Below are positions 4,892-53,649 of a DNA stretch of 64,000 nt, piece after piece (position 1 is the stretch's first letter; each line of letters opens with the position of its first letter). This DNA is from Wolfiporia cocos (lineage: Eukaryota > Basidiomycota > Agaricomycetes > Polyporales > Phaeolaceae). Under the pieces are notes generated by a model. That model saw nothing but the letters and a program-made list of their open reading frames with translations, was not told the DNA's origin and searched no databases. The stretch spans positions 62,001 to 126,000 of the forward strand of contig JACCLO010000008.1 of NCBI GenBank assembly GCA_029448655.1, in the 5' to 3' direction. A program made the translations under genes and the position numbers.

Positions 4892-5922
4892 CCCCCTACC
4901 CCCGCCCTTGCGCTTGCGCTTGGGTCTGGGTTTCTATCCTACAGGGGCTATTACTTGTTGCTGCGCACATCCCTTTCTGCCTGACAAGGCGATTGGGGTG
5001 ATAGTTGAGATCTGGGGGATACAGCGCCATCCTCGGCAGAGGATTGGCAACCAGGGAAGCCACACCGCCTTTTTAGGCAGGAGGCCTACCTAACCCGGAC
5101 TCCAGGGTCAAGGAGACATGATCCTCGCTGACAAGCTTGGACCATGCGCGGTTAAGACCCGCCTGTGGAGAAAAGGGGACGGTCTGCCTGTGTGCGCCCA
5201 ACCCCCTGTCATGGCAAGCGTTGTTCAGCGCCCCATCACTATCCATAGGGTCATCATTATGATGGCATGGGAATTTTCCAAAGCCGCCTCCCAGGCGTAA
5301 GGGACCTGCTTTGAACCCGTTATGGGAAAAGCAGTGAGGGGGGTGACGTAAAAAATCACCCTGCCACAGGTCACTCGCGGTAGCCAATAGCATAAGTCCT
5401 CCGGGCAGCTCGGCGTGCGAGCATGGGTCAAACGGATTTGGGGCCCCATTGGAAGAGAAGCGCGTGGCCCACTCCTTCGGGATGTGGAGCGCTGCTGTCT
5501 CGCGATCTTAGATCGACAATGGTTTTTTAGCCCTGATGTGACACCCATGTGGCTACAGACGGCAACCTCATTGTTGAAGCATGGACAGGCTAAGGGATGT
5601 AAAATCCCAGCCACTTTCCGGCATCGTCCCTCCGGGGCGGTGTCGTGCATCCGAATCCCAATCATCTGACCCAGGAACCGGCCTGGCAGTCAGCAACTCT
5701 ACCCCTGGAGTCGGCGCCTCTGACCGTTAGGGTCATGCGAATATCCGCGCCGTCTCGGCACAGGGTTTGCGCGCAACATAAGAGTAATTATGCCCCGTAG
5801 TACACCTTCTTTGCTCCTGAAAAGGAGTCCACTACCCTACCTTACATAATCCCTTTCATTCCTGTTCTTGGACGTATCACTGGGAAACTTCGTTTCTCAT
5901 GAAGGCTGCACTTTCTAGAATC
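4892..5922 (+). other. Long 5' leader of element B
   Basis: About 1 kb between the primer site and ORF0 with only short, poorly coding ORFs. It is nearly identical to the leader of element E (42025-43057), so it is maintained sequence, presumably holding packaging or translation signals. One clear local fold is CTCCT-GAAA-AGGAG at 5814-5827, a 5-bp stem capped by a GAAA tetraloop about 95 nt before ORF0. Confidence 0.6.
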
Positions 5923-27227: not shown

Positions 27228-27773
27228 TGTCACGGATATCCCTGGGGGGGTACCTGACTCCACTCACGTTAGCTGTATGGGCGGCGCTAGGCGTACGCCG
27301 CTCCGCTACACTAACGCTTGTCTCACGTTAGTACTCGAGTATATAGATCACCTGATTGTCTGGTTAGCGCTGTAGGGTAGCGCGCGTCTCATCATACGGA
27401 CACGTGTAGTTAATGTGCACGGACCATTACTTTAGGGCTAGACTCGTAGTTACTACGCTCATGCATGTATATATACGACAAGATGGCGGCCTTACAGCCC
27501 CATCTTTAGGATTCTCGTCATTGAGCGCAAGCTCCTCTCTTACCACCTAGTCTGTGTTGCTGCTGGCCCGGGGCCCACATCTCGACTGCTAGTCTGTGAG
27601 TCAGTGACGTCGTCGTCTGAGGAACCTCTGGTGGCTGGGCACCTTAGGGATGGACCTATGAGTTCATCGGGGGTTGACCTTATGAGTACGGCGGTGCCGT
27701 TGTCTTGCCACCTATGCAGGCGTGTGAGGATCCCCCTGTAGCCAGGGTCGCACAGACTGGTAAGTCTGTGACA
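27228..27773 (+). repeat. Solo LTR (546 bp, TSD CATGG)
   Basis: TGTCACGGATATCCC to AAGTCTGTGACA; TSD CATGG at 27223-27227 and 27774-27778. Shares the TTAGCGCTGTAGGGTAGCGC block (27364) and GCTGGCCCGGGGCCC with the TRIM LTRs. Hairpin AAGATGG(c)GGC..GCCCCATCTT at 27480-27506, U5 end CACAGACT-GGTA-AGTCTGTG. Confidence 0.92.
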
Positions 27774-27778
27774 CATGG

Positions 27779-28255
27779 TGAGCAGACATTGTGCCGTCAT
27801 CTAGTAATGTAGTGCGCTCCGTACTAGTGTGGAAGTGCAAGTACACAGTAGATGGGGGATAACGGGGAACCGGAGAGGGAGAGAGATTGATGCGCCGCGA
27901 CAATCTCATAGTAGGTCATGCCGCGGAAAGTGGGGGGAAAATCAATCAACAAAGATACAGGATCAGATAGAAGAACAGAAGCCTGAAAAGGAACCGTGAG
28001 AATAGAAGTGCTTATGTGAGCACGAAAACCGGGCATCAAATGAATTATCCCAAAGTGGTCATTAAGCACTTTCGGGGCTGCCCGGGTCTAGGGCACGAGG
28101 CTGTTACATGTGAACAAGTCGTGGAGAGCGCGAAGTCGTGGGCTGCGCGGACTGGAATTGCGACAGCTCTACCATGAACTGTCACCCTGCTCCTCTGCTC
28201 AAGCTCACACTGCACAGCCTACTAGCTTTTGTGCCTCATCTTGCACTCGACAACC
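27779..28255 (+). other. Upstream region of the seven-exon gene
   Basis: About 480 bp between a solo LTR and the first ATG of the gene at 28256. No ORF of note and no clear TATA box. A CT-rich stretch with GCTC/TTTTGTGCC just before the ATG is compatible with a fungal promoter and 5' UTR. Confidence 0.35.
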
Positions 28256-28904
28256 ATGTCTAGCACATCCAGCACCGTCAGCGTCGACACCATGGCTGCC
28301 CGCATGGTTGCAGCCTTCAGGGCAGCCCCCAAGATCCGTAAGGGGGAGGCATACGATCTTTGGGAGACCCAGATGATGGATATGATGGTAAGTGTTTTTC
28401 CTCTCACTTGTATCTATGGTAATCAACAACACTGTCTCAGGCACAATATGCAGTCAAGTTTCCGCATAATAAGACAAAAAAGGGCAGGGGCTGCCGCTCC
28501 TTGTGGCAAGCATCGTGGCTGAGTATTGCGAGGCCAATGATAATGGTAGATCATTCGACACGAAAAAGGTGAGGATCAACGACAAACGTATCAAGACCGA
28601 CAGCCGGGTTTCCTCAGTGGTGGAGGACAGACCAATCCCAGAAATCAAGGATCTGGGGGAGGATCAGTGGTGGATTAAAGGTGAGTACAAGAACTCTTCC
28701 TTCCATGGATTCACGATCTGAAGATATATGTACAGGATTGGCGACTGGTAAGAAGGGCGCCTCGACTCCCAAGCTTTCAGGCAAAAAACGAGCTTGGGAG
28801 GAAGATGGAAATCATAGAAGCGCAGGGGACGTCACTATGGATGAGGTAGGCAGCACAAAGGAGGAGAGCGACGATGAGGAGGGACATGGTAGCAAGAGCC
28901 GCGG

Positions 28905-29050
28905 CCGTAGCAAGGGTCGCGGCCACAAGGGTAACGAGGGTCACACCAGTCGCGGCAGTCGCGGAAGTCGTGACAGTCGCGACGGTCGAGGTTGCGAGGG
29001 GAGCGAAGGTCGCGGTAGTCGCAGAACCGGTGCAGGTCGCAGAACTGCCA
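28905..29050 (+). repeat. GTCGCGG-type minisatellite in exon 3
   Basis: Degenerate 6-9 nt units (GGTCGCGGC, AGTCGCGGA, GGTCGCGGT). In one frame it encodes Arg/Gly/Ser repeats, in another Ala/Val repeats; the gene enters in the first and leaves in the second, so a unit-sized indel or cryptic splicing within the tract is likely. Confidence 0.6.
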
Positions 29051-30384
29051 GCAGCCGTGCCTCGAGCACCTCGCGCGCGCCCTCGACAGGCCCCCCGGTC
29101 ACAGTCTGTTGACCCGAGGCCATCAAAGCTCAGGAAGACCGACAGCAAGCCGTCATCAGCACGGCTGTCGCGCACCTCCAAGTCGCCTGCTGTGTCAGGC
29201 TCAAGGAACCCCAGGAGGCCATCATCAGAGGATGGCAATGACAGTGATGCCCCACCGCCACCTCAGGGAAAGCCAACCAAACTGAGGGCCACTCCATCTG
29301 GAAATCCATCCATATCAGTAAGTGATGGCGGGGGGAGGGGAGTTTTCTTTAACAGATAAAGCTGACACTTTTCCAGGTCCTGTCATGCATCAGCTGCCTG
29401 CAGACCCACAGCACCTGCACCATCGACGTCAGCCGGCGAGCGAGGTGCGAGCGTTGCACCATGATCAACTCAAAGTGCAACCTGGTCCCAAAGGGCCTCA
29501 GCGAGAGGGGGCAATTTGTGCCTCTGAGAGGCAACGCGGCACGAGGGATAGCGGCGAAATTTCAAGAGTGGTTCAAGGACCCGGAACGACGGCCAGAGTG
29601 GTTCAACAGACTGAAGGTAATATACTTTGATGGCATAGAATTTATATTCGACAGGACAACACTACGGAGTAAGGCAGAACAGTCGAGGTTCCCCCAGCGA
29701 GGTGAGCAGTTTCCATTTTTATCTTAACTTGTGCTGATGAGCGATTTAGCTCGACCCAATTGGGATGAAGAGGGTGACCATGACGGTGATGATGAGCAGG
29801 GAGGTCAGCTCGATGACGAAGAAGATGCTAGTATGTGGGAGCAAGAGGACGAGCAGGATGAGCAAGATTCAGGCAATGAGGGCCATGATGAGGACATGCC
29901 AATTGCAGATGAGCCGAGCGGGGCTGAAACATCAACAGAGCTGCAAACCGACAAGGAGAAGTCGGCGGCACGGCAGCCGATGGGGGTCGCGGAACACGGG
30001 ACCCAGGGTGACCAAGCGGTGGCCTCTCAAGAGCATCCCAAATCAGTTCTGACCCAGAACGCTCAGCCAGGAGGTGAGTACAAATGCTATTCATTGGTGC
30101 GGTGATTCTAATCAGTAGCACTCTCCTATGTGTACCTAGCATATCGCGACCGTGAACAGCTCCTTCAAGAAATTAAAGGCCTGAGCAGCCTCGCCGAGCA
30201 GGTCATGAACAAGGTGGACTGCATGGAGGTGTCCATGGGTCAGATTGCAAACAGACAGGTGGGAATGCAGATAGAGGTGGAGACCCTGCGTCAGAGGGAC
30301 TTGATGCCGACAGCAATACCTGCAGACCTGTTGGACACCACATCTGGGACCACCTCAGCCATGAACACCGCGACTGGTGTAGGG

Positions 30385-32001
30385 TGACACAGAACATACC
30401 GCCCTTCCCCCCCTATCTCCAGTGTTCCAGCGTAGCCCCAAGGTGTGTCAGTTCTAGGTGTACGCGCATAGAGGTAGAGGATCTCCCAGACTAGCATGAC
30501 TTAGTTGAAGTAGTCGCGCAGTGCACAGGGAGTTCTGTCACAGATTTATCTGGGGCTTACAGCATTTTTCCTACGATTATAGCAATTTACCTGGGATTTA
30601 TACGTCTACCTACAAGTTATCTACGGGTTAACCCCCATTGCCACAACGACAAGCTCTTAACTGGGCTCGTCAACCACATGACCAGCTTACATAACGCTAC
30701 GGCACCTTCCGGTCCAATAGCATAGTATAGCTACGTCATACAGGTCTCGCCCGACAGAGCAAGACCAAGCCACGTCATAGATCCTAGATCATAATGATAG
30801 GCCGAGCGCGGCACGCTCGCATAATAATGTCCACAAGTACAAACAGTGCCTCGCGGCCTTGTACTATTGGGTCGGCCTTCCCGGCTTCCCACCGCCATAA
30901 GATCCTTGATCACAATGGCACCTCAGGCACGCCACGCCTTCGCATAATAATGGCAACACGACCATACAGCACTATAATAGCATCAAGGCTATATCGCTAT
31001 AGGTCACGGCCTTCTCGGCCTCCCACGGACTCGGCGGTCTCCAAGTCCCGGGCTTCTGCCATCACGGCGTTGCCCAAACACCGGTCCTCGCCTCACGGCT
31101 AAGACCACCATATGCTCCGGTAACCATCCGGTCCGGACATATCACATGCTACGGTGCCTGCTGGCCCAATAGCATAACGACCTCGGCGCCTCGCCTTGGT
31201 CATCCAACGAAGCACGGCCAATCGCCATTATACCGCAAGGTATCCGGCAACCGGCTTCACCTATACCCGGGCTGCGCCCGCGTTAGCATCACAATAAAGA
31301 CATAATCCCTCTATTACGATTGGGTCGGCCATTAGGGCTTTCCACGGCCATTCTAGATAGAGTAACTAAACATCAGATAAGATAAGCTTCGCCACTTGGC
31401 AAAGCCACATAACCCGGTAAGGACATAGCTAGATAGTAGCACGTGACCTTCCCGTACACATGTATATAAGTAGGAGCCAAGCGCTCTATAACTTCAGTTC
31501 TATTCTTCTCGGCGTACGCCGTAGAAGAACCTTCCACCTACTATAGCGTCTGATAACCTCTACCTCACCTCGTCGCCTTAGTTCATCGCAAGGATACTGG
31601 CATGGTGAGTCCCACAGAGCCATCTGTGTCAAGTTCCATGGGTGACAGTCCTGCCCCTCATCAGGGAGGACGTCGAGAGATTTCTAGTTCTGGGGAGTAA
31701 GCCCCAGAACGCATAGGCTTATATACATGAGTAGACGCGCTACCTACTGTTCTACACTACCGGCCCTAAAGGCGTGGTACGTGCGTGTAAGTACTTCTGC
31801 GCTACCCACGGTCATATGGCATAATTAGGTAAGTAATAGCACGGGACCAGGGCGCTAGTCTACTACCTGCATGTGACCTAAAGTCACGTGATCTGTCTGC
31901 CTCCCTTCCAAGCGCTGGCACGAGCATCTAGGAGGTGGCGTCGGGCGCTAGGATCTACCGTAGGGCGCACAAATCAGCTAATAAGGCCAAAATTTGTGAC
32001 A
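30385..32001 (-). repeat. Solo LTR in the gene (own length 516 bp, TSD TAGGG), itself interrupted
   Basis: Minus-strand LTR from TGTCACAAATTTTGG (ends at 32001) to TGTTCTGTGTCA (starts at 30385). TSD TAGGG at 30380-30384 and 32002-32006. An L2 solo LTR sits inside it. On its strand a TATA box (near 31713) is followed by the 9-bp hairpin GTTCTGGGG-CTTACT-CCCCAGAAC (31687-31710). It splits exon 6 after GGG (Gly). Confidence 0.9.
30536..31631 (+). repeat. Solo LTR of family L2 (1096 bp, TSD AGTTC)
   Basis: TGTCACAGATTTATCTGG to CACAGAGCCATCTGTGTCA; TSD AGTTC at 30531-30535 and 31632-31636. The complete copy of the LTR whose 3' end is seen at 16812-17066. The ends of U5 pair as CACAGA-GCCA-TCTGTG (31613-31628). 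Confidence 0.93.
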
Positions 32002-32006
32002 TAGGG

Positions 32007-32972
32007 GCTGTGACTACCGCGGCTGGTGCGGATGGCGCAACCACGACCACCGCAACTGGCGCGACCACCGCGACCACGGCCTCCTCAACCAGTGCAACCG
32101 CGACCTCCGCGACCACAACCTCTGCGACTGGCATGACTGGCACGACCGCGACCTCCGTGTCACAGATTTATCTGTTCTCTAATTTTCCCTGTATTTTTCA
32201 CTATTTCTTCGCATTTATTCCGAATTGTTCTTCGACATCTGCACTTATCCTGTATCTAAGCTATACTTAAGCTACCGTGCCGCTGTACCGAACCATAACC
32301 TTGTAGATCACTCACGTGACCATTCCCACACTAGACGTCTTATCTTATCTCTCAACCACGTTACCTATTCATCACATGATACTATCTCCAGCACCCTTAG
32401 CGCTGCCACGTCATAACTGACATCACCGTTCCAGACTCTGGGCAGAGTCCGGACCCACATCACGTTTCCAACGTAGACGCCTTACTCACGCATCGTCATA
32501 CCAAATGACATATCCCGATCGGCCTATGACTCAGCCCGGGATCCCCATATCACAAGCTACGGACACTTCGTTAGCACCGCCATTACCGGCCTGTGCCCTA
32601 CGCCCTACTGTATCGTTAGTCCTACCTAGAGTACCAGGGGTCTTATACCACATGTATATAAGCTTGCATTCTCTGGCGGCTATTGCCCCAGAACTATCAA
32701 CTTCGTTACTCAGCGATAACACTCTTGCCTAACAAGCAACAACTACTTAGTCTTCTTAGCTCGTCTAACTACAAGACCTTACAAGTAAGTCATTCGTTAC
32801 ACTTCGCGACCACCACGACCACCGCGACCACCGCGACCACCGCGTCCTCAACTGGCGCAACCACGACCTCCGCGGCCACGACCTCCGCGGCCACGACCTC
32901 CGCGACTGGCACGACTGCGACGCCCGCGACTGGTGCGACCGTCGCGACCAGTGCGACCACTACGGCTGATGC
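32007..32972 (+). repeat. GACCACCGC minisatellite encoding Thr/Ala (exon 6), cut by an LTR
   Basis: Two blocks, 32007-32157 and 32807-32972, of degenerate 9-nt units such as GCGACCACC, separated by the solo LTR at 32158-32801. They form one in-frame Thr/Ala/Ser tract that continues at 44349. All three LTR insertions of the gene lie in or at the edge of this tract. Confidence 0.7.
32158..32801 (+). repeat. Solo LTR in the gene (644 bp, TSD CTCCG/CTTCG)
   Basis: TGTCACAGATTTATCTGTTC to CATTCGTTACA, resembling family I in its U5 end (TTACAAGTAAGT). Flanks CTCCG (32153-32157) and CTTCG (32802-32806) differ by one C/T, acceptable for an older insertion. Removing it keeps the Thr/Ala frame. Confidence 0.85.
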
Positions 32973-33392
32973 TGACACAAGCAACAAACTAGCACTCAAC
33001 CGGGGGAAGGGGGCTGACTCAAAGGCGCCTTCCTGGTCTCGGGACCACTAGCCGTCAAAGGCCAAGACAAGTCTGAGGTTTACGCTCAAGACTGTCTGGC
33101 ATATATACTCCTAAACTATTTGTACATGTTTGTGTACGGTGGCTCAGAGGCCTCTACGTACTGGTATCTAACTGGCTATGAGTTATGTGCCGGTAATGGC
33201 ATCGGAGCGCTGGGTACGCGAGGATGTCCATGGCGACGTAACGTATAAGGGGCGGATCTAATGAGTAGCCAATCTGTCGGGTTCGATTGGTGGTTCTCGT
33301 TGATCGTAGGCGCGCCGGTAATGGCGGGGTTCTAAGTCCGTGATCGGGCGTCGTCTGCCACGATCGAGGGCTGGCTAGTACGGGCCGGGTGT

Positions 33393-34091
33393 TGACACAG
33401 ACTAGACTGTGGGACTCACACTATAACCTAATAGGCGACTTTGAAGGAGTTGCTTGAGGTTGGTGAGGAGGCTAGTGGGCGCAAGCAGAGATGGTATGTA
33501 ACTGTGCGAATGCAGAGAACAAATCTAAGGCTTATCGTAGTGATAGCCCTACTTATATACATGCATTGTTTGGTTACTCGAAGAGGAGCCAAACAAGTAG
33601 ATGGTCTGTGCGCAGACGTAACTAATACAGCTAAGTCGTAAACTACAGTAGACCACGTGCGCCGGTAATGGCCGCACCAGTAAGATCGTGTGTTTGGACC
33701 GTGGGTCCATGTTGTGGAAGTGGCGTCACTACGTTAGTAAGCCATGCACGTGATAACTATATACCGGTATCGGGATATGAGTAATACTTAAGGGCATTGG
33801 CATGTGATAACGAGCGGGCCGCTTATCCAATTGTACTGACATAGCCCGGGACCGGGATATGAGTAAGGCGCGTGACACCGGAGGTTAGTCCGCTGAGTCA
33901 TTGACGCGTACAAACGTGTTATGTACGTGTTGTTATGACAAGTGGACGTATACCGCGTTGTGTACGTGTTGTTTGGTTGCGTGTACGTGTAGACAGGCGC
34001 TTAGCAGCGTAAACGTCTACAAGGTCGTAGAAATACCAGATAAATAGGTAAAAATACGGGAAAAATAGTGGCATGTCCCAAATCTGTGACA
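33393..34091 (-). repeat. 3' LTR of element E (699 bp)
   Basis: Family-B LTR in inverted orientation, TGACACAGAC.. at 33393 and ..TCTGTGACA at 34091. Compared with the E 5' LTR I see only scattered differences (for example near 33850 and 34012), so E is also fairly young. The polypurine tract (element strand GAGAGGGTAA) abuts it at 34092. Confidence 0.94.
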
Positions 34092-34130
34092 TTACCCTCT
34101 CTTCAGGTTTCATTGTCCCTAATGGAACGA

Positions 34131-37100
34131 TTACTTTCCTGTGGAGCTGAATCCACCAGTACCGCGCTCGGATTTAATCTTTTCAAAGTAAGATTTTCCG
34201 TGTAGCGTAATGTGCGGGTCCTTAGCAACTTCGCAGATGAGTTGAGCAATCTTGTCACCGGCCCGAATATCGATAGATATATCAGAGTGATTCCGGAGAA
34301 TGATGATTACTTCGCCTTGATAATCGTGATCGATAACGCCACCCATTACGTCTATGCCTTTTCGGGCAAGACTAGAGCGGGGGGCGATACGTCCGTAAGT
34401 GCCGAAAGGTACCTGGATTTTCAGTTTGGTATTGTATTCTGTCTGCCCGTGGGCTGGCAGAACGTCGCCTGTTGCAGTGTACAGGTCAAACCCAACCGAG
34501 TCCTTGGTTCCCTTTTCCGGCATTCGGCCGCCTTCACCGACTACGATTTTCAAGTCCGCGTTTTGGTTAATGTCTGCTGACATCCATCCCCCGTCGGGGT
34601 GTCTAACCATGCGCTGCTTAGGATCCCTTGCAAATTCTTCGCGATACTGCGGCCAGTCGTCTGGCCACGTGCATTCGTCGGCTTCCCAGTCGTTGCTGTC
34701 AGGGTCGAAGACATGAACTGCTTCTTTCCTTCTAGCTGATTGCCTGAGGGGGACGTCCTGCATTGGAATGGCGTGTGAAGCCTTATATTCCTGCAGAATG
34801 TCGTATGCCGTGTTGAGATCGGCTTCGCGTACCCAGGAATCGTTATTGATACCAAAATCTTTCCATCGGATTCTGTATTCAACTCTTCCTGCGCGGAGAC
34901 GATGATCTAAGATCTTCTCAACTTCCCATAGTTCCTCGCCGTCGACCATTTCTGGTTGAGGCTCTGGTTTCTTCTGATGCACAGGGTCTTTGTACATAAC
35001 CAACTTGGAAGCGTGAAATACTGGGTGATAAGCCCTGTATTGCTCGTCCATATGTACCCTAAAGGTGACCGGAGATAATTGTTCAATTATCTTGAATGGC
35101 CCCAGATAGCGTGGACTAAGACTTCTTTCGGAGTCTTGCCAGCTACGGGCGTCGACGAGAACTTTGTCGCCAACTTTAAACGGTACCGAGCGCTTGTGTT
35201 GATCACAGTACCAAGACCAGCGTTCGGCAGCCAATTTCATTGCTGCCTTAGCTTGTTCTTGTGCTGACCATCTGGCGTAGGCAAATTGATTTAAGTCCGA
35301 GTATTGCGTCGGCTTCAAATCCGTAGGTCCTGCATTGGGATGCCTTCCTAGTTCGACGAAGAATGGACTATTCTTGGTCGTCTCACTAGCCGCGTTGTTG
35401 TACGCAAACTCTGCCGTGGGGAGATAGAACACCCAGTTATCTTTTTGGATAACGTCGATATAGCATCGTAGGTATTGTTCTAGAATTTGGTTAATTCTCT
35501 CCGTTTGGCCGTCCGCTTGCGGGTGGTAGGCTGTCGTCATCGACCTCTGAATTCCCAATTGCTCGCACCATCCCTTGAATAACTCAGAAGAGAATTGTGG
35601 TCCTCTATCCGAAATAATTTGTTTCGGAAGCCCGTGATTCGGATAAATCCGAAGGTACAGGAGGTTCGCTAATTCTTTTGCCGAGATATTGTCTGATGTG
35701 GGGATGAAGTGTGCGCGCTTGGTCAATCGGTCCACTACTACCATAATAGCAGTGAATTGTTTGAATTCGCCGCTAGGCGGTAAGTGAACGATGAAGTCGA
35801 TTGTGATTGTGTCCCAGGGTGCTTCCGGTACTGGGAGCGGTTGCAGGGGTCCATACGGGGTCTGGTTGCGGTTCTTCATGCGCTGGCATGTGTCACAACC
35901 TTCCACGTATTGCTTCACCATCGTGGTCATTCCAGGCCACCAGTAATTACGTGATAGAAGTTCATAGGTCTTCCATCGTCCGAAGTGTCCAGCAGTCACA
36001 TGGTCATGATGTAACTCCAGAATCTTCGTGCGCAATTCCTTAGGCTCTTTTGGAACGTACACTTTTCCTCGTCTGAGGAGTAATCCGGCCTCCATGTTCC
36101 ATTCCTGGAGATCTTTACTGAATTCCTTGGGACCACTTTTCAGTAGTTCCTGGTAATCCTTGGTAATCTGATCGTCCATGAGGGCTTGTCGGATTTGTCG
36201 GAGGAGGTCCTCGTCGCCTGATTGTATCTCCTGCTGTGACGCTTCTAGCGCCCTAACCATAAAGTATTCCGGTTTCAGCAAAATCTGATCGCGATTATCG
36301 AGTTCCACCCCCTCTTCATGGTCTGGCCTCCGTGACAGAGGGTCAGCCGTGAGCATTGTTTTACCGGGTTTGTGGCACATGGTGAAGTTGAACCTTGTCA
36401 GGTAAAGACTCCAACGTGCCTGTCTCCGGGTTAGCCGTTGTGCCGATTTGAAATATGTCAGATTGAGATGATCCGACCATACTTCGAATTTGTGTGGATG
36501 TCCCTCGAGGTAATGTCTCCATTCCTCTAGAGCGCGGATGATTGCGAGCAACTCCTTATCGTAAATCTCATAGTTCCTTTTGGGTGCTGATAGAGATTTC
36601 GAGTAAAAGGCTACCGGGTGCCAGAGCTTATCCTCCGAAGAGTATTGTGATAGTACCGCACCAGTTGCGTAATCGGAAGAATCCGCTTCCACGCGGAACG
36701 GGGACTCTTGATCTGGGATCCGGAGTATTGGAGCCGATGTGAAAGCTTCCTTGAGAGTTTGGAAGGCTTCCGCTTGTTCGGGTCCCCAGTTCCACTGCGT
36801 GTTTTTCTTGGACAGTTCGGTTAACGGCTTAACCACTTTGGAGAAATCTTTAATGAACCGACGGTAGTAGTTGGCGAAGCCAACAAAGGCCTGGACGTCC
36901 TTCACCTTGGCAGGTGTAGGCCAGTCCATAACGCCGGCTACCTTCTTAGGGTCCATTTCGACTTTTCCTTTGGAAATGATCATTCCCAGGTATTCAATAC
37001 TGCTTTGTTCGAAGAAGCACTTTTCAGGCTTCACGAACAAGTCGTTGTCTTGCAAGATTTGTAATACTTGCTTGACGATACGACGGTGTTTCAACAGGTC

Positions 37101-38666
37101 GTTTCCGAACACAAGGATGTCGTCTAGGTAGACAATGACCTTTCCTTCTCTGATAAGGTCACCTAGAATATCGTTCATCATGTGTTGGAATGTGCTGGGT
37201 GCATTACAAAAACCGAAGTACATGACTACAGCTTCGTAAAGGCCGTTAGGCGTAATGAATGCGGTCTTCCATTCATCTCCCTCCTTGATTCTTACGTTGT
37301 TGTAACCCCAACGCAAGTCGAGTTTCGTAAATATCGAAGCCTGGCTAAGCTTATCGATAAGCTCGTCTATGCGTGGGAGAGGGTACCTATTTTTAATGGT
37401 CAAGTCGTTTACTTTCCGGTAATCGACTACCATTCGGGCTCCGCCGTCTTTTTTAGGGACGAAGAAGACCGGGCTCACGATCGGGGATTTCGAGTGTCGG
37501 ATGTAGCCCTTCCGTAACTCTTCCTGAATCCACTGATCTAGCGAGTTCGCCTCCTGAGGAGACATCTTGTATGCCTTACTCGGGGGCGGTAGTACCGCGT
37601 CATCGGGGAAGTCGATGGCGTGGTCGTATGGTTTCCGCTCGGGCATCCTTTCGGATGCGCGTTGAGAAAATACCGTGCGACCAAACTCCTGGTATTCCTC
37701 CGGAACCAAGGATTTCCATTTCTGGAGATCCGCATCTGTCAGGAATTCATCATCCGACTTCTCCGTTATCGACTGAATGGCGTCGATAAGGAGTTCCGTT
37801 CCTTTGTCAAGGGTGTTCACCCAAGCGACAAAGGGATTCTCAGGCTCCTCTAAGCCGAGAAAATCTATTGGAAAGTCGTTGATGATCTGATAGATGTTGC
37901 GGGGTTCGATTTCGTCTTCTTTCTCAGAAATCGAAACCCGTTTACCATGTTTGCATTTTTCCGTACACCGATATGTGAAGGTTCCTTCCGGCCAGTTGAA
38001 GTCCAGGTTGTGTTTCAGGAACCAGTCATATCCGAGGATCACATCCGCATTCTGCACGTCCATTACGTACAAGAATTCGGTGGACTTGTGTTCCTCGTGC
38101 ACCATATAAGTTTTAACCGCCATATTGATATTACCGGCGGTATTAGAGGTACCGTCTGCGTTACGAATCTCGAGGGGCGAAGGTAGTTTCTGAGTGACTA
38201 ACTTCTCCTCGTGTACGAGTTTCTTATCTATGACGCTTATTGATGCACCGGTGTCGATTAATGCCATGGCGTTTACTTTCTTTCCATATACCCACAGTTC
38301 CACTTCGATAGAGAAAGATTTATTGTCGTCTCGAGAATCGTTTCCATGTACATTATACAAAGTGAAAAATTTCAGCGCGAGCGGGTCAGGATGAAAGTAT
38401 TGTACAGGAGGGGCACGTGTAGCTAGTGTCCGAGTCCTCCGGGCAAAGTCCATTGCCGAGTTGCCGAATATACCGAGATGGGATACCGGGTGACGTACAA
38501 CCGCCTTATCTTCCCACAAGATAAGGGGTCTCTGTGAAGCCTCTTCGTAAAGGTACGCTTCTTCGGGGCGCTGTACGCTCCCAGCCGCTGCGGGGCTGGT
38601 GCGTTCTTCACAGAACGTCTTCGAGACGTGTGGTTGGAGCGAGGGGAACCGAGAGGGTCCCGACAT
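34131..38666 (-). CDS. pol: Pol polyprotein of element E
   Basis: A 1511-aa open frame, same length as B Pol and nearly identical. Protease LIDTGASISVI, RT VIVYLDDILVFGND, RNase H, integrase (HHDHVTAGHF, CDTCQRMK, IISDRGPQF, QTERINQ), chromodomain (WEVEKILDHR, YRIRWKDFG) and dUTPase are all present. dUTPase motif V reads GTGGFSSTGK instead of GFGSTG, one Gly to Ser in the phosphate-binding tail that could weaken activity. The start is the first ATG of the open frame, overlapping gag by 59 nt in the +1 frame as in B. Confidence 0.95.
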   Translation of the reverse strand: MSGPSRFPSLQPHVSKTFCEERTSPAAAGSVQRPEEAYLYEEASQRPLILWEDKAVVRHPVSHLGIFGNSAMDFARRTRTLATRAPPVQYFHPDPLALKFFTLYNVHGNDSRDDNKSFSIEVELWVYGKKVNAMALIDTGASISVIDKKLVHEEKLVTQKLPSPLEIRNADGTSNTAGNINMAVKTYMVHEEHKSTEFLYVMDVQNADVILGYDWFLKHNLDFNWPEGTFTYRCTEKCKHGKRVSISEKEDEIEPRNIYQIINDFPIDFLGLEEPENPFVAWVNTLDKGTELLIDAIQSITEKSDDEFLTDADLQKWKSLVPEEYQEFGRTVFSQRASERMPERKPYDHAIDFPDDAVLPPPSKAYKMSPQEANSLDQWIQEELRKGYIRHSKSPIVSPVFFVPKKDGGARMVVDYRKVNDLTIKNRYPLPRIDELIDKLSQASIFTKLDLRWGYNNVRIKEGDEWKTAFITPNGLYEAVVMYFGFCNAPSTFQHMMNDILGDLIREGKVIVYLDDILVFGNDLLKHRRIVKQVLQILQDNDLFVKPEKCFFEQSSIEYLGMIISKGKVEMDPKKVAGVMDWPTPAKVKDVQAFVGFANYYRRFIKDFSKVVKPLTELSKKNTQWNWGPEQAEAFQTLKEAFTSAPILRIPDQESPFRVEADSSDYATGAVLSQYSSEDKLWHPVAFYSKSLSAPKRNYEIYDKELLAIIRALEEWRHYLEGHPHKFEVWSDHLNLTYFKSAQRLTRRQARWSLYLTRFNFTMCHKPGKTMLTADPLSRRPDHEEGVELDNRDQILLKPEYFMVRALEASQQEIQSGDEDLLRQIRQALMDDQITKDYQELLKSGPKEFSKDLQEWNMEAGLLLRRGKVYVPKEPKELRTKILELHHDHVTAGHFGRWKTYELLSRNYWWPGMTTMVKQYVEGCDTCQRMKNRNQTPYGPLQPLPVPEAPWDTITIDFIVHLPPSGEFKQFTAIMVVVDRLTKRAHFIPTSDNISAKELANLLYLRIYPNHGLPKQIISDRGPQFSSELFKGWCEQLGIQRSMTTAYHPQADGQTERINQILEQYLRCYIDVIQKDNWVFYLPTAEFAYNNAASETTKNSPFFVELGRHPNAGPTDLKPTQYSDLNQFAYARWSAQEQAKAAMKLAAERWSWYCDQHKRSVPFKVGDKVLVDARSWQDSERSLSPRYLGPFKIIEQLSPVTFRVHMDEQYRAYHPVFHASKLVMYKDPVHQKKPEPQPEMVDGEELWEVEKILDHRLRAGRVEYRIRWKDFGINNDSWVREADLNTAYDILQEYKASHAIPMQDVPLRQSARRKEAVHVFDPDSNDWEADECTWPDDWPQYREEFARDPKQRMVRHPDGGWMSADINQNADLKIVVGEGGRMPEKGTKDSVGFDLYTATGDVLPAHGQTEYNTKLKIQVPFGTYGRIAPRSSLARKGIDVMGGVIDHDYQGEVIIILRNHSDISIDIRAGDKIAQLICEVAKDPHITLHGKSYFEKIKSERGTGGFSSTGK

Positions 38667-40972
38667 TGGCGACGGTGGTGGCGGGGGCCGATGTTCCTGC
38701 TGAGCTTGAGTCAGCCGTTACTTCTTCCCAAATGTATCGGGCACGATACGTCTTGCCATCCGTGGGGGGCGCCGAGTACGGCTTCTTGCCAGAAGCCTGT
38801 CCCTTTCCACTACCCGAAGGAGCAGTTGTGGTCTTTCCAGACGCGGCAGCTGCATCCTTCGCCCTTTGTTGTTCGGACCGCTGAGCGGCAGGCACGAACG
38901 TTCCCGCAGCCTTGTCCGCGGCAAGCTTAGGACACTTGTTGAAGTAGTGTCCCGTCTGCTTGCAGTAGGTGCAGACGGCGTTGGCGGTGTCGGCGGGGGC
39001 TTTGGCGGGCGCCTTTCCCTTATCCTTCTTTTTCTCCGATTTCTTTGCAGAAGCGGAGGACGTCTCCTTCTTTTCGGCAGGGGCCGAGTCCTTCTTGCCG
39101 GCCTTCTCGAAGATCGAGCCCTTGATTTTGTCCGGATATGACGTTTGGTACATTTCCAGGGCGAAGTCGATGAGGGGCTCGATGTCGGTCGGGGCCTTGA
39201 AGAAGGGGGTCTTGCCGAGGACGTTTAAGGTGTCCTTGACCTTTTCGGGGAGTGTCACGGTTTTCTACCTGACGTTGGGACAGTGTACTCCCCCGGGGTC
39301 GAACCCCGGTCCTCTTGGTATCTAGTCACATGTTAAGGCTGTTCCATAGTGTAGCGGTTATCTTCCATACCTTAGTTGTCACGTTACAGGGACACATGAC
39401 AGAAGCTTAGTCAGCGGCGTCGCGGAGCCGGCGCACGGGCCTTTACTTTAGGGTCGGTACTTACAAGTAGTACGGTGCGCTTGACATGTATATAAGCTAG
39501 CGACTGAGGTCTTACAACCTCAGTCTTGTTATTGTCGACATTGGGGCGTGTCCCACAGCTTTACTCTTCTGCGTGCTCTGCTGGCTCAACCATCGACACA
39601 CTCCTTGGTCTTTGAGCATCCCTCATAGCCAGCGCCGCTAGGACGACTACTGTCTAAGGCATTGCGCCTTATATCCTAGGGCATAAGCCGTACGTTCTGT
39701 ATAACTGCGTCACGTTCGCAGTAATTGAAATAGTTCGATTCTGCCAGTTCCTTTCCTTTGGTACCGTAGTAGCCGCGAATCTCCTTTTTCGCGATCTCCT
39801 TGTCCGTCATCTTGCCGTATTGCACCATTACGGATTTGGTGAAGTCCTCCCAGGTGCCGAGAGGTTCACCGTTTCCTGCCTTCTTGATGAGAGGCGAGAA
39901 AAACTTGTATGCGTCTCCTGTGACACGGAAGAGGGCCGTGGTGATACGGTCATGGTCATCATAGACCCTGAGTGTACCGAAGTATAGGCCCATCTTCTCC
40001 ACCCATTCCTGCGCAGTCACCTTTCCAGATGACCCAGAGAATTCGGGGGGAGGAGGAATTTTCAGGTTTTGAGGCAGACCTGGAATCTGCGGGGTGACGG
40101 CTGCTGCAGCAGCGGCTGCAGCTTGTGCGGCGGCAGCGGCCTCGGCTGCACGGGTTCGAGCAGTGTTGGGTGCCGGTGCGGGTTCTTCCGGGGGCGTGCG
40201 GACACCGGGAGGGTTGGGAACGGAGGGATTCTTGCGACTCCTCCGAAGTTCTTCCTCAACCTTCTCCATGCGCTCGGCAAATGCATCCTCGAGGTCGTCG
40301 AGCCGAGACCGGTAATCCTTCCGGAGTTCTTTCTCCATTTCGGAGAACTTGGCGGTGTATTCCTGCCGGAGTTCCTTGCCAAGGTCCACCAAAGTGGACA
40401 CAACCTCGTTGCGGACTGAATTGACCGCTTTGTGTAGCTCGTCTTGGGCCATTTGTTCGATTGCCCTGGATTGCCCAGCCAGGGAGTCGATTCTGCCATG
40501 GATTCGCTCCAGGCGGGCGTACATCATCCGGCCGAGGGTGTTCACCTTGTCGTGGGTGATTGCCGCACTTCGTTGTACGGCGGCATCGAGGATTGCCCCA
40601 TGCAGGGGTGCATCCACCTTGTGGTGATCCTCCTCTGGGAGGTACGACTTGAGGCCTGTTTCGACCTGGTCATTGGTTTGGCGTTCTGGACCCGAAAACT
40701 CTATTTCTAGGTTTGTGACGGGCCCAATCGGATGGGTGTAGCGAGCCGGGGGGTATCCGGGGATAGGTGTGCCCGGATGCGTTCCCATGGGGTTGGATGG
40801 GGAGTCCCTTTGCGGGGGAACCTCCTCGACTTCATCCTCTTCCTCTTCCTCGCTTAGGTGGTCCAGGGTCACCAGGGGTTGAGTCCCTGAGGGCCCTGGC
40901 GTCACCGGACCTTCCGAACGGAGGCGCATGCGACGAGGGGCGGGGGGGGGCTAACGGAGGAGGTGGAAGACA
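38608..40972 (-). pseudogene. gag: Gag of element E, frameshifted and cut by an LTR
   Basis: Equivalent of B Gag. Near the ATG (40970-40972) a C-rich run changes the spacing to the next ATG from 45 to 43 nt, shifting the frame; translation could still begin at 40929 (MRLRSEGP). The coiled coil, Ala-rich linker and capsid core follow to NYFNYCER, where an L3-family LTR (39253-39712) replaces 67 nt of gag. The C-terminal part from LPEKVKDTL to the CCHC knuckle (CTYCKQTGHYFNKC) and the end remain (39252-38608). The missing 67 nt also break the frame, so this gag cannot be rescued by excision. Confidence 0.88.
39253..39712 (+). repeat. L3-family LTR inside gag of E (460 bp, no TSD)
   Basis: TGTCACGGTTTTC to AACTGCGTCA, the same as 48763-49223 (opposite strand). 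TATA at 39488 and perfect 9-bp hairpin GACTGAGGT-CTTACA-ACCTCAGTC (39502-39525). Flanks GGGAG and CGTTC do not match and 67 nt of gag are missing, unlike a simple insertion. Confidence 0.88.
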
Positions 40973-41124
40973 TTTTTTGCGAATCTGTTTATGACGAATG
41001 TTAGTTTCCGGTTACTCATTGTCTTACATTCTTTTTAAGAAGGGATTTTGGTTTGAAAGCTGCGACTTTCGTTATAGATCACACTCGCACTCTATTTCAG
41101 AGTTAAAAGATGATAGTATTTCTA

Positions 41125-42024
41125 CTATACAATCGCGAGTATATCCTCTTCTACCGAAGTAGTTGAGGGCCCTGCCACCTTGTCAGGTGGTGTTACACCG
41201 AAGGCAAAAGTAATTTGTAGCGCTACGCATTCTGCTATGATACGAGCCAAGTCCGTACGCCAATCCAAAAAGGAAATGTTGCCGAGTTGTTTGCAATACT
41301 TTTTCATAATTCTCCAGTCTCTATTGGTGATCCTCCCCCGTCTCGCTCTATCCTTTACGTTATCCACCAAGTCCTCCAATTCTACTACCATAGTATGGAA
41401 TCGCATGTCGTTTTCCATATGGAAGCCTGGGTAATTAGGGGGGTGGTTGGCGAGAGGAGTGAGACGAGTGAGAGTGCCTTCTAGCATGGGAATAACTTGA
41501 TCGCATGCTTGGAGAGGCTTCTTCTTCCCGAAGACGAGGGAAGAGTCGAGAATTTTGTGGTTGGTCGGAACGGGAGGTCCGGCCGCCGGGCTAGAGAGAC
41601 GGAGGGCCAGTGAAGAAGCTGCTTGCTTGGCTTCCTTGGCGGCTTGTTTGGCGGCGATTCGCTTATTCAGCTTATCGCGGGCGAGCTTGAGCTTGTTGAG
41701 TTTGCGGAGTTCGATGAGATTCTCCATGGCGGTAATGGAAGCGGCTAGCTTCTCTTCCTCTGTCCAGATGCGCTTGGCAAGTGGAACTGGTTTGGGAGGT
41801 CGAGGAGCGGGTTTCCCAGCCTCGGCGATGTGCTTTGGCATGTGGACGGGAATCTCCCAAAGATGGAGCTTCCCGGTGTAGTCTTCCTTTACAGGAAGCG
41901 TGTAGGTGACGTCCTCTGCCCGAGGAACGTCAGCTGTGTCGATGCGGCTGAGAAGGGACCGCTTCGCCGGTTTGACGTAAGGGGCAGTGGAGGAGCCACG
42001 GGTGCGACGGGTAACGCGGGGCAT
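41125..42024 (-). CDS. ORF0 of element E
   Basis: A 299-aa protein almost identical to B ORF0, from MPRVTRRTRGSS to SVEEDILAIV. It differs at only a few residues (for example DTADVPRAEDV against DTTDIPRAEDV), so the frame has been kept while gag of this copy decayed. A 1-nt insertion upstream destroys the alternative ATG seen in B, which supports this start. Basic N-terminus, Lys/Ala coiled coil, C-terminal helical domain with GRITNRDWRIMKKY. Function unknown. The spacer to gag keeps the GAAA hairpin at the stop codon but has a much shorter A-run than B. Confidence 0.85.
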   Translation of the reverse strand: MPRVTRRTRGSSTAPYVKPAKRSLLSRIDTADVPRAEDVTYTLPVKEDYTGKLHLWEIPVHMPKHIAEAGKPAPRPPKPVPLAKRIWTEEEKLAASITAMENLIELRKLNKLKLARDKLNKRIAAKQAAKEAKQAASSLALRLSSPAAGPPVPTNHKILDSSLVFGKKKPLQACDQVIPMLEGTLTRLTPLANHPPNYPGFHMENDMRFHTMVVELEDLVDNVKDRARRGRITNRDWRIMKKYCKQLGNISFLDWRTDLARIIAECVALQITFAFGVTPPDKVAGPSTTSVEEDILAIV

Positions 42025-43057
42025 GATTACTAGAAAGTGCAGCTTTCATGAGAAACGAAGTTTCCCAGTGATACGTCCAAGAACAGGAATAGAAGGGATT
42101 ATATAAGGTAGGGTAGTGGACTCCTTTTCAGGAGCAAAGAAGGTGTACTACGGGGCATAATTACTCTTATGTTGCGCGCAAACCCTGTGCCGAGACGGCG
42201 CGGATATTCGCATGACCCTAACGGTCAGAGGCGCCGACTCCAGGGGTAGAGTTGCTGACTGCCAGGCCGGTTCCTGGGTCAGATGATTGGGAATCGGATA
42301 CACGACACCGTCCCGGAGGGACGATGCCGGAAAGTGGCTGGGATTTTACATCCCTTAGCCTGTCCATGCTTCAACAATGAGGTTGCCGTCTGTAGCCACA
42401 TGGGTGTCACATCAGGGCTAAAAAACCACTGTCGATCTAAGATCGCGAGACAGCAGCGCTCCACATCCCGAAGGAGTGGGCCACGCGCTTCTCTTCCAAT
42501 GGGGCCCCAAATCCGTTTGACCCATGCTCGCACGCCGAGCTGCCCGGAGGACTTATGCTATTGGCTACCGCGAGTGACCTATGGCAGGGTGATTTTTTAC
42601 GTCACCCCCCTCACTGCTTTTCCCATAATGGGTTCAAAGCAGGTCCCTTACGCCTGGGAAGCGGCTTTGGAAAATTCCCATGCCATCATAATGATGACCC
42701 TGTGGATAGTGATGGGGCGCTGAACAACGCTTGCCATGACAGGGGGTTGGGTGCACACAGGCAGACCGTCCCCTTTTTTCCACAGGCGGGTCTTAACCGC
42801 GCATAGTCCAAGCTTGTCAGCGAGGACCATGTCTCCTTGACCCTGGAGTCCGGGTTAGGTAGGTCTCCTGCCTAAAAAGGCGGTGTGGCTTCCCTGGTTG
42901 CCAATCCTCTGCCGAGGATGGCGATGTATCCCCCAGATCTCAACTATCACCCCAATCGCCTTGTCAGGCAGAAAGGGATGTGCGCAGCAACGAGCAATAT
43001 ACCCCTGTAGGATAGAAACCCAGACCCAAGCGCAAGCGCAAGGGCGGGGGTAGGGGG
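42025..43057 (-). other. 5' leader of element E
   Basis: Near-identical to the leader of B (4892-5922) in opposite orientation, including the CTCCT-GAAA-AGGAG hairpin (minus strand, near 42121-42134). No long coding frame. Confidence 0.6.
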
Positions 43058-43068
43058 AGATTTGTTCT
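43058..43068 (-). promoter_or_regulatory. Self-primer binding site of element E
   Basis: AGAACAAATCT on the minus strand, two bases inside the 5' LTR, complementary to the predicted RNA start AGATTTGTTCT in the LTR (plus-strand AGAACAAATCT near 43195). Same arrangement as B. Confidence 0.82.
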
Positions 43069-43070
43069 TA

Positions 43071-43769
43071 TGACACAGACTAGACTGTGGGACTCACACT
43101 ATAACCTAATAGGCGACTTTGAAGGAGTTGCTTGAGGTTGGTGAGGAGGCTAGTGGGCGCAAGCAGAGATGGTATGTAACTGTGCGAATGCAGAGAACAA
43201 ATCTAAGGCTTATCGTAGTGATAGCCCTACTTATATACATGCATTGTTTGGTTACTCGAAGAGGAGCCAAACAAGTAGATGGTCTGTGCGCAGACGTAAC
43301 TAATACAGCTAAGTCGTAAACTACAGTAGACCACGTGCGCCGGTAATGGCCGCACCAGTAAGATCGTGTGTTTGGACCGTGGGTCCATGTTGTGGAAGTG
43401 GCGTCACTACGTTAGTAAGCCATGCACGTGATAACTATATACCGGTATCGGGATATGAGTAATACTTAAGGGCATTGGCATGTGATAACGAGCGGGCCGC
43501 TTATCCAATTGTACTGACATAGCCCGGGATCGGGATATGAGTAAGGCGCGTGACACCGGAGGTTAGTCCGCTGAGTCATTGACGCGTACAAACGTGTTAT
43601 GTACGTGTTGTTATGACAAGTGGACGTATACCGCGTTGTGTACGTGTTGTTTGGTTGCGTGTACGTGTAGACAGGCGCTTAGCAGCGTAAATGTCTACAA
43701 GGTCGTAGAAATACCAGATAAATAGGTAAAAATACGGGAAAAATAGTGGCATGTCCCAAATCTGTGACA
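43071..43769 (-). repeat. 5' LTR of element E (699 bp)
   Basis: Family-B LTR, minus orientation, followed outside by TSD GGTGT. Its TATA box lies near 43230 on the minus strand. Confidence 0.95.
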
Positions 43770-44801
43770 GGTGTAGCGTAGGTTGATCGAGCATGATCGG
43801 CTGCAATCGGGGTGTAGCGCTCTGTGACTGGTAGGGTTCTCAGTCGTGCAGAGCCTGGAGGTATTATTCCTGCCTGTTGTACTCGTAGGTCAGGGTGCGT
43901 ACGGGGTATAGTATAGTGTCTATGCCAGTAATGGCGAGTGTCCGTGCGGTAGGGACGCGAGGTGTTAGGTTTAACGTTCCGGGTCACGTGCGAGTGTAGA
44001 CCGTGCCCCTAGTCGGCGTATAGCATGGTGTGCGATGGGTAGTCTTTGGTTGTACAAGGCGTACCGTTGTGCTATCGTAGCCTGTTGGGCTCTAGGGGTC
44101 GGCTCGTGACTCCGGGGTTTAGGGACTAGGCAGCGTATGTCTTGCTGCCGGGACTTGGACTGAGTTTAGGGTTAGACTGCTGGTGGCCTGCTAGTGCCCG
44201 TAGTGTCCTGTATAGCGGAGGGCTTCTACTAGCGTTGCCGTAGGATTCCAGCTGGGCCCGGATAGAGTGCTGTAGCATGCGTATGGCGTGAATGGGGTGT
44301 CAACCTAGGATGTTCTACTAGGCTTTAAAATTGGCTTGTGACAGATGCGGTCGTGATCCCAGTCAACGAATCTCCTGCAAGTACTTTGCTTGCCATCTCC
44401 ACTGCCGCCATCTCCGCTCCTTCCACCGTCGTACCCACAACCACCGCACCTGCCTCCATCCCAACATCTCCTACTGAAGCCACCACAACTGCCACAGACA
44501 ATGTCGCCGAGACCGAACCGTATGCGACTGGCTCCCATGTGCCATCCCTCTCTCCCACGGAGCCTGCTGGCTCCCCTGGCCCTTCACAGCAACCACTTAC
44601 ACAGGCTTTCCACGGGTATGAGACTCCCATGGATGTAGATGAGCTGCCCCCACAGAGTGACGCGTCTGACTATGAGTCTAAATACAAGTTCAGCGATGGT
44701 ATGTCCACATTTTCCTCAGACTGGAGATGCTCAACAGCGCCGTGATTACAGATGACTCAAGTTCATTTGGCTCTGACATGGAATTTGGGACAGATGTCTA
44801 A

Positions 44802-46020
44802 ATTCTCATTACATGTATATGGCGTGGGTGCCATCTTGTATATGCTGTTAGGTCAATGTAAAAATATTATTTTGTCTCCTGTTAACGAAATGGATGGGAT
44901 GGTCATGCGAGAACAGAGAGAGTAGAAGCAAACCACTTTACCTTCCATCTTGGCCAAAGCAATGAATATACCATCACAGTGTAGGCCACTTACATTATGG
45001 GGATCTTGGGCTGGAAAGCATGGCGGCTAAAAAGGTGGCGGTGGTTGTGGTGGGAAGTTGAGGTAGCAAGTTGCAGGGGCAACAGATGTTGCAGAGGCAA
45101 GTCTTGGGAGTTGCTGTGGTTGCAGTTGCAGCAGTCGCGGTGGTCGCGGTGGTTGCGGTAGTCGCAGTGGTCGCAGCGGTCGCAGCGGTCGTGGTGGTCA
45201 CAGGAGTCGTGGTGGTCACCGTAGTTGCTGATAAGGCTCCACCTAAATAGCATACATACTGTGTATACACAGTTTTAACTGTATACCATATACTGTAAAT
45301 GCACAGCAATTAGTAGACGGTATTTCTTCAGTGTTGCATGCAGTACATGGTTTCTGTCTATGATGGTAGCATTGCACTTGCATCAGCATTGCCATGGGTG
45401 TTTCCCTTCTATAATCATATGAAAGATGAACTTCAGAACATTACTGATATGTCTGCGATCCCACATACCTTCCTTGCAGTTCAGGCAAGTATTGTGAAAC
45501 TATTAGTGTGCTGCTCATAAGCCATTGAACGCCATATGAATATCCTGGCAACATGTAAATAGTCTCCTGCCGTTGGATGTATGGAGCTCACATTATCATC
45601 AGTGTTTCACTGAGCTCTTTGTCATGCACGATTCAAAATGCTGGGAATGAATGAAAATGGATGGTGTGGGCTCTTTTTGAGCATGTCTTTGAGAGCTACA
45701 AGACAAGTGTTTTCCAACTGGCAGATTCACCCCAAGAACCTCAGCCCAGCATCATATGGTCATCACACTTTCTGGATTAAATCTCAGCTGGAGTCTCTGA
45801 TGACATACAGCCTGTGCTTGTTTGTACTGAGATACAATGCGGGAAGAACTGAGAAGGTGGCACAGGGGATCCAAACTAACCACTTGTCTGGTGGAAGGTA
45901 AGTGCTGTGATAAATGAAACTTAAGATCTCTTCTCATATTGCTTATGCACATGCTCGCGGATATCTTGTGCTATGTCGAATGGCAAGGGATTTCCTAGCA
46001 GTCCCTGGCATGAGCATCTC
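44802..46020. other. Spacer downstream of the gene with weak coding remnants
   Basis: No intact gene. Short open frames at 45338-45520 (SALPWVFPFYNHMKDELQNI) and 45638-45901 on the plus strand look protein-like; the first vaguely recalls hAT-type transposase but is too short to call. Base composition is more AT-rich than the retroelements, so this is probably older host or DNA-transposon sequence. Confidence 0.35.
45110..45232 (-). repeat. Second GACCACCGC minisatellite, inverted
   Basis: Plus strand reads GGTCGCGGTGGTCGCGGTGG; the minus strand encodes Thr/Ala repeats like exon 6 of the gene that ends about 310 bp earlier. Could be an inverted partial duplication of the repeat. Confidence 0.55.
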
Positions 46021-52961: not shown

Positions 52962-53649
52962 CGCTTTCGCCCCCGCCCTCTTTGAGGGTCTGGGATTTTT
53001 TCTTCTTAGGGGTTTTTGTCGCCGTCTGCGCACCCCCGCTCGCCGCCAGGCAGCGGGGTATCCTTAGTGGGTTCTGGGGGATCACCGCCTTCGGGCAGAT
53101 AGCCGGACCGTAGGCTTAAGCGGAACCAGGGGACTGGCTGACAAGCCTTTCCCCATATGTTGGGAATCGATGGCAATGGTGTAACGTCTTGACCGGGCCG
53201 GAGACGACCTTCTCGCTTATCCCCAGGCGTACAGGGGCCACTCTATTCAGAGTTGGGATGGTGGGCACGAGTTGCCCTGCCTAGAACCGCTGCCGATACG
53301 GTTTCAGAACGATGGAGTTCTGGCCTTGGCGCCCTCTAAGTCCCTCAGGGCATGGGTTTGGTTTGAACACTGGCAGCCACCTAACTGGAGTGAGGCGTGG
53401 GCACATGCGGGGTGTAATACCCCAAATCCTGCATTCCCAGGCGTCAAGGGAAGACGACCTGCTGTATCCCCCACCTGGTAGCGTGAGAGAGATGCAATCC
53501 AGTCGCCGACACTAACTCCGGTCGAGGGCGGAGCGCCCATTGACGCCGGAGGATAAGCGCACGACACATCAAGAAGCAACGATAAGCCCTGACAGAAGAC
53601 CGCGTGAATTTCCACTAGAATAGCTTACTTAGACTTCTTTTACGTAGTC
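52962..53649 (+). other. 5' leader of element C
   Basis: About 690 nt, GC-rich, no long ORF, not alignable by eye to the leader of B. Confidence 0.55.

Follow-up and report, generated by a model that had tools for sequence, protein, structure and literature searches.

We examined a 64,000-nucleotide stretch of the Wolfiporia cocos genome, hereafter the window (assembly GCA_029448655.1, 64.43 Mb in 76 contigs; contig JACCLO010000008.1, positions 62,001 to 126,000, which is C75:62001-126000 in our numbering), and found that coding pieces scattered between positions 28256 and 44801 form one gene. The gene is interrupted by insertions of long terminal repeats (LTRs) and has an uninterrupted sibling elsewhere in the genome. 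It is part of a family with many members, which holds a fixed place in elements that are bounded by terminal inverted repeats (TIRs) and carry KDZ and TET genes. Very probably, the pieces represent one gene, with seven exons here and eight in an intact relative, of a family borne by ~24-kb KDZ DNA transposons, provisionally of the Kyakuja type, that also encode a TET/JBP dioxygenase, the window copy being a decayed remnant.

A sequence-only reading of the window had proposed that four fragments are a single gene split by three LTR insertions, each with a target-site duplication (TSD). Each of the four fragments was located as claimed, as were the TSD pairs of the three insertions, the terminal intron and the final exon (Table 1). 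The TSDs are TAGGG for insertion 1 (30380-30384 and 32002-32006), CTCCG and CTTCG, with one mismatch, for insertion 2 (32153-32157 and 32802-32806), and GATGC for insertion 3 (32968-32972 and 44344-44348), where a perfect 5-bp match at one fixed boundary has a chance of ~1 in 1000. The inserts bear LTR-type ends, which are TGACAC or TGTCAC at the 5′ side and TGTGACA (inserts 1 and 3) or GTTACA (insert 2) at the 3′ side. The three sites therefore stand with their TSDs, but three was an undercount; at least six insertions lie in and beside the gene, since one is found upstream of the ATG and insertions 1 and 3 are nested pairs. In our exon model, the seven exons lie in ten pieces (132+240+582+325+324+245+151+166+350+50 = 2565 nt), and the proposed cysteine cluster is present in exon 4.

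An uninterrupted natural copy of the same gene, ~92-93% identical and whole in ~2.9 kb without the three insertions, was identified by genome search on C67 (locus L004). Window positions 27769-30384, 32012-32157, 32808-32971 and 44344-44895 align collinearly to L004 410-3008, 3047-3201, 3194-3342 and 3339-3887, with 92-93% identity in the long first and last pieces and 79-81% in the short repetitive ones between them. On L004, the sequence to the left of insertion 1 ends at 3008 and that to the right begins at 3004, while for insertion 3 these values are 3343 and 3339, both overlaps being exactly the 5-bp TSD; the flanks of insertion 0, the one upstream of the ATG, likewise overlap by exactly the TSD, 5 bp at 414-418. 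Insertion 2 sits in near-repeats, and L004 positions its flanks only within a few bases. The gene was thus assembled correctly from its fragments, as corroborated by this natural copy. Two other outcomes could have undone that assembly, namely independent genes matching the 3′ part (44349-44801) alone and homologs ending before 30384. The 3′ part had no genomic match beyond itself and the C67 copy, in which it lies 3′ of the 5′ part. A third copy, on C20, spans only the equivalent of 29193-29808 with LTR sequence at both sides, and hence is a cut fragment rather than a shorter gene.

A protein search of the genome with exon 4 revealed 32 matches to this Zn2Cys6-like exon, of which only three belong to the subfamily of the window, while many of the rest cluster as sets of near-identical copies. 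One intact member, L029 on C76, has eight exons (2916 nt, 971 amino acids); its first five introns are positioned as in the window, whereas its 3′ end has two introns against one in the window. The acceptor before exon 3 of L029, AAAAAG, is unusual and was picked to fit P0001; P0004 of W. cocos, which was independently annotated, has the same 3′ exons as L029. Protein searches returned nine proteins, eight from W. cocos and one 87-amino acid fragment, the named ones all from W. cocos MD-104; as these searches demand shared 5-letter words and candidates were only partially scored in two of the three runs, distant relatives elsewhere could be missed. The six cysteines, in the spacing CX2CX6CX9CX2CX6C, are invariant in five aligned members and share this spacing with the fungal Zn(2)-Cys(6) regulators (PF00172), from which the family differs in scoring under the cut-off and in having its cluster within a transposon-encoded protein whose tail is Thr/Ala-rich. 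Between element subfamilies, exon 4 showed nonsynonymous divergence (dN) of 0.45-0.76, with synonymous divergence (dS) of 1.7 and above, to saturation. These values suggest that exon 4 has long been conserved. We used the cysteine frame in our model because it is the one preserved across subfamilies with saturated silent sites. Within the young group there were too few changes for dN/dS, and L027 compared with that group gave ratios of 0.68-0.86.

Element copies on C76, C1 and C75 are similar across >10 kb and end at one common point. The 200-bp end sequence gave 105 rows, in which at least 40 matches are long, with 87-100% identity (scoring covered 40 candidates), and six inverted end pairs are spaced 23.4-25.4 kb, with further neighbouring ends closer or more distant. 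The C76 copy has TIRs of ~380 bp with 85% identity and subterminal arrays built from a 44-bp unit (left array, 29 copies; right array, ~6). It encodes a KDZ transposase (PF18758, E 3.3e-32; CxC2, E 2.7e-29) and, on the strand opposite to CxC2/KDZ, a TET/JBP dioxygenase (Tet_JBP PF12851, E 9.8e-14); no further Pfam family exceeded the cut-off in its scanned frames. Perfect 7-bp TSDs (ATGGTTG, ACTTACC, GTTGGAC and ATGGCCG) were read at four of 13 end pairs, which were picked by proximity, at least one of them joining two like ends. The elements bounded by these TSDs are on C8, C12, C75 and, as a second element, C76, and the first three contain KDZ, TET and the Zn2Cys6-like gene all together.

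The same elements showed a few further features. Between TET and the Zn2Cys6-like gene, at L034 298-3562 (C76:215798-219062), lies a further element gene with frames of 123-361 amino acids, in which no Pfam family was over the cut-off. The copies at C1:187668 and C20:21873 have an identical outer flank, TGACTGCAAGCATGAGCAGA, pointing either to a segmental duplication or to a region duplicated in the assembly. The element ends C4:2858211, C11:453469 and C23:5097574 adjoin another common flank, CTCGAGGTAAT, where either the target is repeated or the region has been duplicated.

The association of the gene with the elements extends beyond the TSD-bounded copies. A TET match was found within 30 kb of 20 of the 32 Zn2Cys6-like exon matches, compared to 3.4% of the genome; the corresponding values were 18 of 32 against 7.2% for KDZ, and 21 of 32 against 3.2% for a TIR end (one of the 21 is the C67 sibling, whose end was added from a separate search; leaving it out gives 20). 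Conversely, TET has 20 copies with 99-100% identity, and for 17 of these a Zn2Cys6-like match lies within 30 kb. In addition, the spacing is fixed, with a GGTGTG-type end 2.8-3.1 kb from the gene in 11/32 matches and TET 10.0-11.6 kb away in 10/32. An ordinary single host gene, working until three LTR insertions disrupted it, as the sequence-only reading had it, would equally show the exon order, introns and TSDs described, but it is very unlikely, given that the family is multi-copy and inside TIR-bounded elements, with 11 of its 32 members ~3 kb from one end of KDZ/TET elements, and that both the window copy and its sibling carry lesions of their own, as detailed below.

Several results weigh against the main explanation, a gene family borne by KDZ/TET transposons. 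TET, KDZ and TIR are all absent within 30 kb of five of the 32 matches, one of which is the window's; the window itself contains no TIR, KDZ or TET match and no terminus, and the closest KDZ match to its gene is ~58 kb off. Nine of the 13 end pairs lack a TSD, and one TSD-bounded element (C76:3184118-3209535) has KDZ and TET but no match to the Zn2Cys6-like exon. Neither KDZ nor TET was matched in 21 kb around the C67 sibling; an end belonging to the same element family, matching over 24 bp with 1 mismatch, does lie ~3 kb upstream of the ATG of the sibling, and on these two grounds the sibling is probably a shortened element. As for the cysteine cluster and the predicted DNA binding, the window copy reached 10.5-11 bits against the PF00172 cut-off of 21, the Pfam Zn_clus match was sub-threshold in four of five members (best E 0.036), a PDB profile search gave nothing significant with LEU3 as the sole hint (E 2.8), and the structure model of exon 4 alone was poor (predicted local distance difference test score 47). 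Moreover, the cluster is found in none of the nine database proteins as annotated, at which the exon is skipped, the model ends earlier or another frame is used.

The matches that lack KDZ, TET and TIR nearby, the TSD-bounded element without the gene and the two common flanks could all be explained by a host multigene family in transposon-rich regions that was copied together with KDZ elements via segmental duplication while lying outside the mobile unit. This explanation is unlikely, because it does not account for the fixed distances to the GGTGTG-type end and to TET, or for the gene lying between duplicated target sites in three elements.

The window copy is itself decayed. The sequence-only reading had one frame kept throughout, whereas reading on in frame from the ATG runs into stops at 28570 and 28847. 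Compared to the intact relative, exon 2 misses one base near 28480, a loss common to the window and L004, and exon 3 has one surplus C near 29091-29098 that is not in L004. The claimed coding length of 2565 nt is exact as a sum; it is still a multiple of three because the two frameshifts cancel, and is therefore a weak argument. Being common to C67, the frameshift near 28480 predates the insertions in the window, unless another splice site is used: an acceptor, GGCAG, at 28487 fits by eye the phase of the exon-2 frame that is conserved and would restore that frame, in which case the base missing from both copies is not necessarily a lesion. The surplus C, which is within a homopolymer run, could be an assembly error. 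With both assumptions, the window copy might still be translated through an alternative intron (28388-28487) that bypasses the exon-2 frameshift; this is hardly credible, since intron 1 occupies the same place in the window, with 53 bp, as in the intact relative, with 55 bp, and the gene remains split by 13.6 kb of LTR sequence.

The C67 sibling has its own lesions: its exon 2 contains an in-frame TAG, its exon 3 a 2-nt gap, and 1-nt gaps occur close to the 3′ end. It also has its own insertion, a 707-bp LTR with TSD ATTAA located 3′ of its stop codon. Both copies thus appear to carry disabling changes unrelated to LTRs, and of the proposal that this was a functional gene, what holds concerns at most its ancestry, and neither this copy nor the sibling. 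Between 27774 and 30384, the window and L004 differ by 183 substitutions in 2593 aligned bases, of which 164 are transitions and 86 are CpG to TpG/CpA changes (at 68 sites the window has CpG where L004 has TpG or CpA, and at 18 the opposite holds). Likewise, 44344-45780 had 90 substitutions in 1360 bases, with 79 transitions and 33 CpG to TpG/CpA (26 versus 7 opposite). A study on W. hoelen reports methylation that is mostly CG and far greater on transposons than on genes (PMC9503964); hence the transition-rich CpG change fits decay of methylated DNA. The window copy would then be a remnant left by an older and shortened relative of the 24-kb elements, which may have been silenced by CpG methylation, decayed through CpG-to-TpG change and frameshifts, and gathered nested LTR insertions.

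Among these insertions, the inner LTR of insertion 1 is evidenced by genome copies of its middle part, and the LTR of insertion 2 recurs with 93-98% identity in at least 39 further genomic places, at least 35 of them full length (40 of 147 candidates scored). The inner Ty3 element of insertion 3, whose LTRs differ at two sites, is therefore a recent insertion relative to the 7% divergence between the gene and its sibling. In the upstream region of the gene, at ~27203, an LTR-like end, TGTGACA, is followed by ATGTC, which L004 also has there; perhaps this marks a seventh insertion, of which just the one end was located.

Table 1. Exon pieces of the gene and LTR insertions in the window
Feature	Position	Strand	Remarks
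Insertion 0, solo LTR upstream of ATG	27228..27773		546 bp, TSD CATGG; absent from the sequence-only reading
Exon 1 of the decayed cargo gene	28256..28387	+	132 nt, length equal to L029 exon 1; splice site GTAAGT
Exon 2	28441..28680	+	1-nt frameshift near 28480, also in C67 copy; inherited-frame stop at 28570; L029 exon 2 tblastn match 28482-28673
Exon 3	28736..29317	+	One surplus base in C-run ~29091-29098, not in C67; inherited-frame stop at 28847
Exon 4, Zn2Cys6-like C-X2-C-X6-C-X9-C-X2-C-X6-C cluster	29377..29701	+	43% identity to L029 exon 4
Exon 5, acidic region	29750..30073	+	Splice phase matches L029
Exon 6, first piece, TSD TAGGG at its end	30140..30384	+	Flank placed on L004
Insertion 1	30385..32001		1617 bp, TSD TAGGG; outer LTR interrupted by inner LTR 30536-31631 (TSD AGTTC)
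Exon 6, second piece, Thr/Ala-rich	32007..32157	+	32012-32157 aligns to L004 3047-3201
Insertion 2, solo LTR	32158..32801		644 bp, TSD CTCCG/CTTCG
Exon 6, third piece, TSD GATGC at its end	32807..32972	+	32808-32971 aligns to L004 3194-3342
Insertion 3	32973..44343		11371 bp, TSD GATGC; ~990-bp older outer LTR interrupted by full-length Ty3 element
Inner full-length Ty3 element, chromodomain + dUTPase	33393..43769	-	10.4 kb; 699-bp LTRs with 2 mismatches; TSD GGTGT
Exon 6, last piece	44349..44698	+	44344-44895 aligns to L004 3339-3887, 92.6% identity
Last exon, ends FGTDV	44752..44801	+	Preceded by 53-bp intron 44699-44751

The pol frame of the Ty3 element (34131-38714) terminates in a dUTPase domain (PF00692, E 7.7e-32); dUTPase in Ty3 elements of polypores has been reported before (PMC2864245). 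A similar Ty3 frame was noted at 8870-13456 (+) from the open reading frame listing, the domain scan having covered 34131-38714. Ty3 elements in the window also have an additional frame of 306-333 amino acids, apart from gag and pol, at 41125-42045 (-) and 5821-6822 (+), and no Pfam family matched 41125-42042 at E 0.01. Another frame, of 285 amino acids at 53608-54465 (+), precedes another Ty3 gag-like frame and has a weak match to DUF7117 (E 0.002, below the cut-off). Downstream of the gene's stop codon, at 45110-45225, lies a low-complexity repeat resembling repeats dispersed through the 24-kb elements. No Pfam family was over the cut-off in three window pieces of the gene (28732-29109, 29362-29616 and 44350-44697), and neither the Rfam scan (gathering threshold) nor the tRNA scan of the window gave matches.

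TET-bearing KDZ transposons were reportedly described already by Iyer et al. in 2014. TET-positive Kyakuja transposons, of the KDZ superfamily, are established in Agaricomycetes, and in Polyporales the TET-positive elements are only Kyakuja, with TSDs of 7 bp in Kyakuja and 8 bp in Zisupton (Kojima 2025, main text of PMC12730594). The elements identified here are alike in having a KDZ transposase, a TET/JBP dioxygenase and 7-bp TSDs. On the other hand, Kyakuja of Laccaria are described there with 5′-CA..TG-3′ termini and no TIRs, whereas ours have 5′-GAGCCC...GGTGTG-3′ ends with TIRs and 44-bp subterminal arrays, a length of ~24 kb and the extra Zn2Cys6-like gene. Judged from their sequences, the intact 24-kb elements are firmly KDZ; because their termini and TIRs deviate from those of Laccaria Kyakuja, assignment to the Kyakuja type is provisional. 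The Cryptococcus elements KDZ1-3 resemble them in a KDZ transposase with a CxC domain and in long TIRs, and differ in being ~9-11 kb with TSDs of 4-8 bp and with no TET or Zn gene described in the available portion of PMC12810828. The words 'zinc', 'cargo' and 'Wolfiporia' are absent from the main text of PMC12730594, and we found no description of the third, Zn2Cys6-like gene of KDZ/TET elements in the open-licence literature.

Regarding what this third gene may do, its intact product is a predicted DNA-binding protein, with the Zn2Cys6-like cluster, the Thr/Ala-rich tail and a stretch that looks coiled-coil-like by eye, and as such it would aid movement of the element or its escape from silencing. 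In plants, En/Spm TnpA and VANDAL VANC are transposon-encoded DNA-binding anti-silencing proteins, which act on the repeats of their own element and counter DNA methylation; the likeness to the third gene is one of hypothesised role only. The subterminal arrays have 11.3 and 8.3 CpG per 100, compared to 5.4 inside the element, and 8.0 (left) and 7.05 (right) CGG/CCG per 100, compared to 2.75 inside. Against dinucleotide shuffles, the excess of CGG/CCG is modest (left 8.0 vs 6.95, standard deviation 0.45; right 7.05 vs 5.55, standard deviation 0.75). Such a composition would allow for an end-binding protein that steers a TET enzyme there. Perhaps the third gene encodes a targeting factor that binds the CpG- and CGG-rich 44-bp end repeats and recruits the element's own TET dioxygenase and transposase, so that the element would demethylate its own ends by a triple module of transposase, eraser and DNA binder; we put this forward as a doubtful possibility, lowered by the absence of the cysteine cluster from the annotated database models.

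The gene is accordingly reassigned from a broken host gene to a passenger of giant TET-bearing transposons. If it is true that this passenger is a DNA-binding partner of TET, a kit for self-demethylation would travel with fungal KDZ elements, an idea that could be tested in a cultivated mushroom whose methylation has been mapped.

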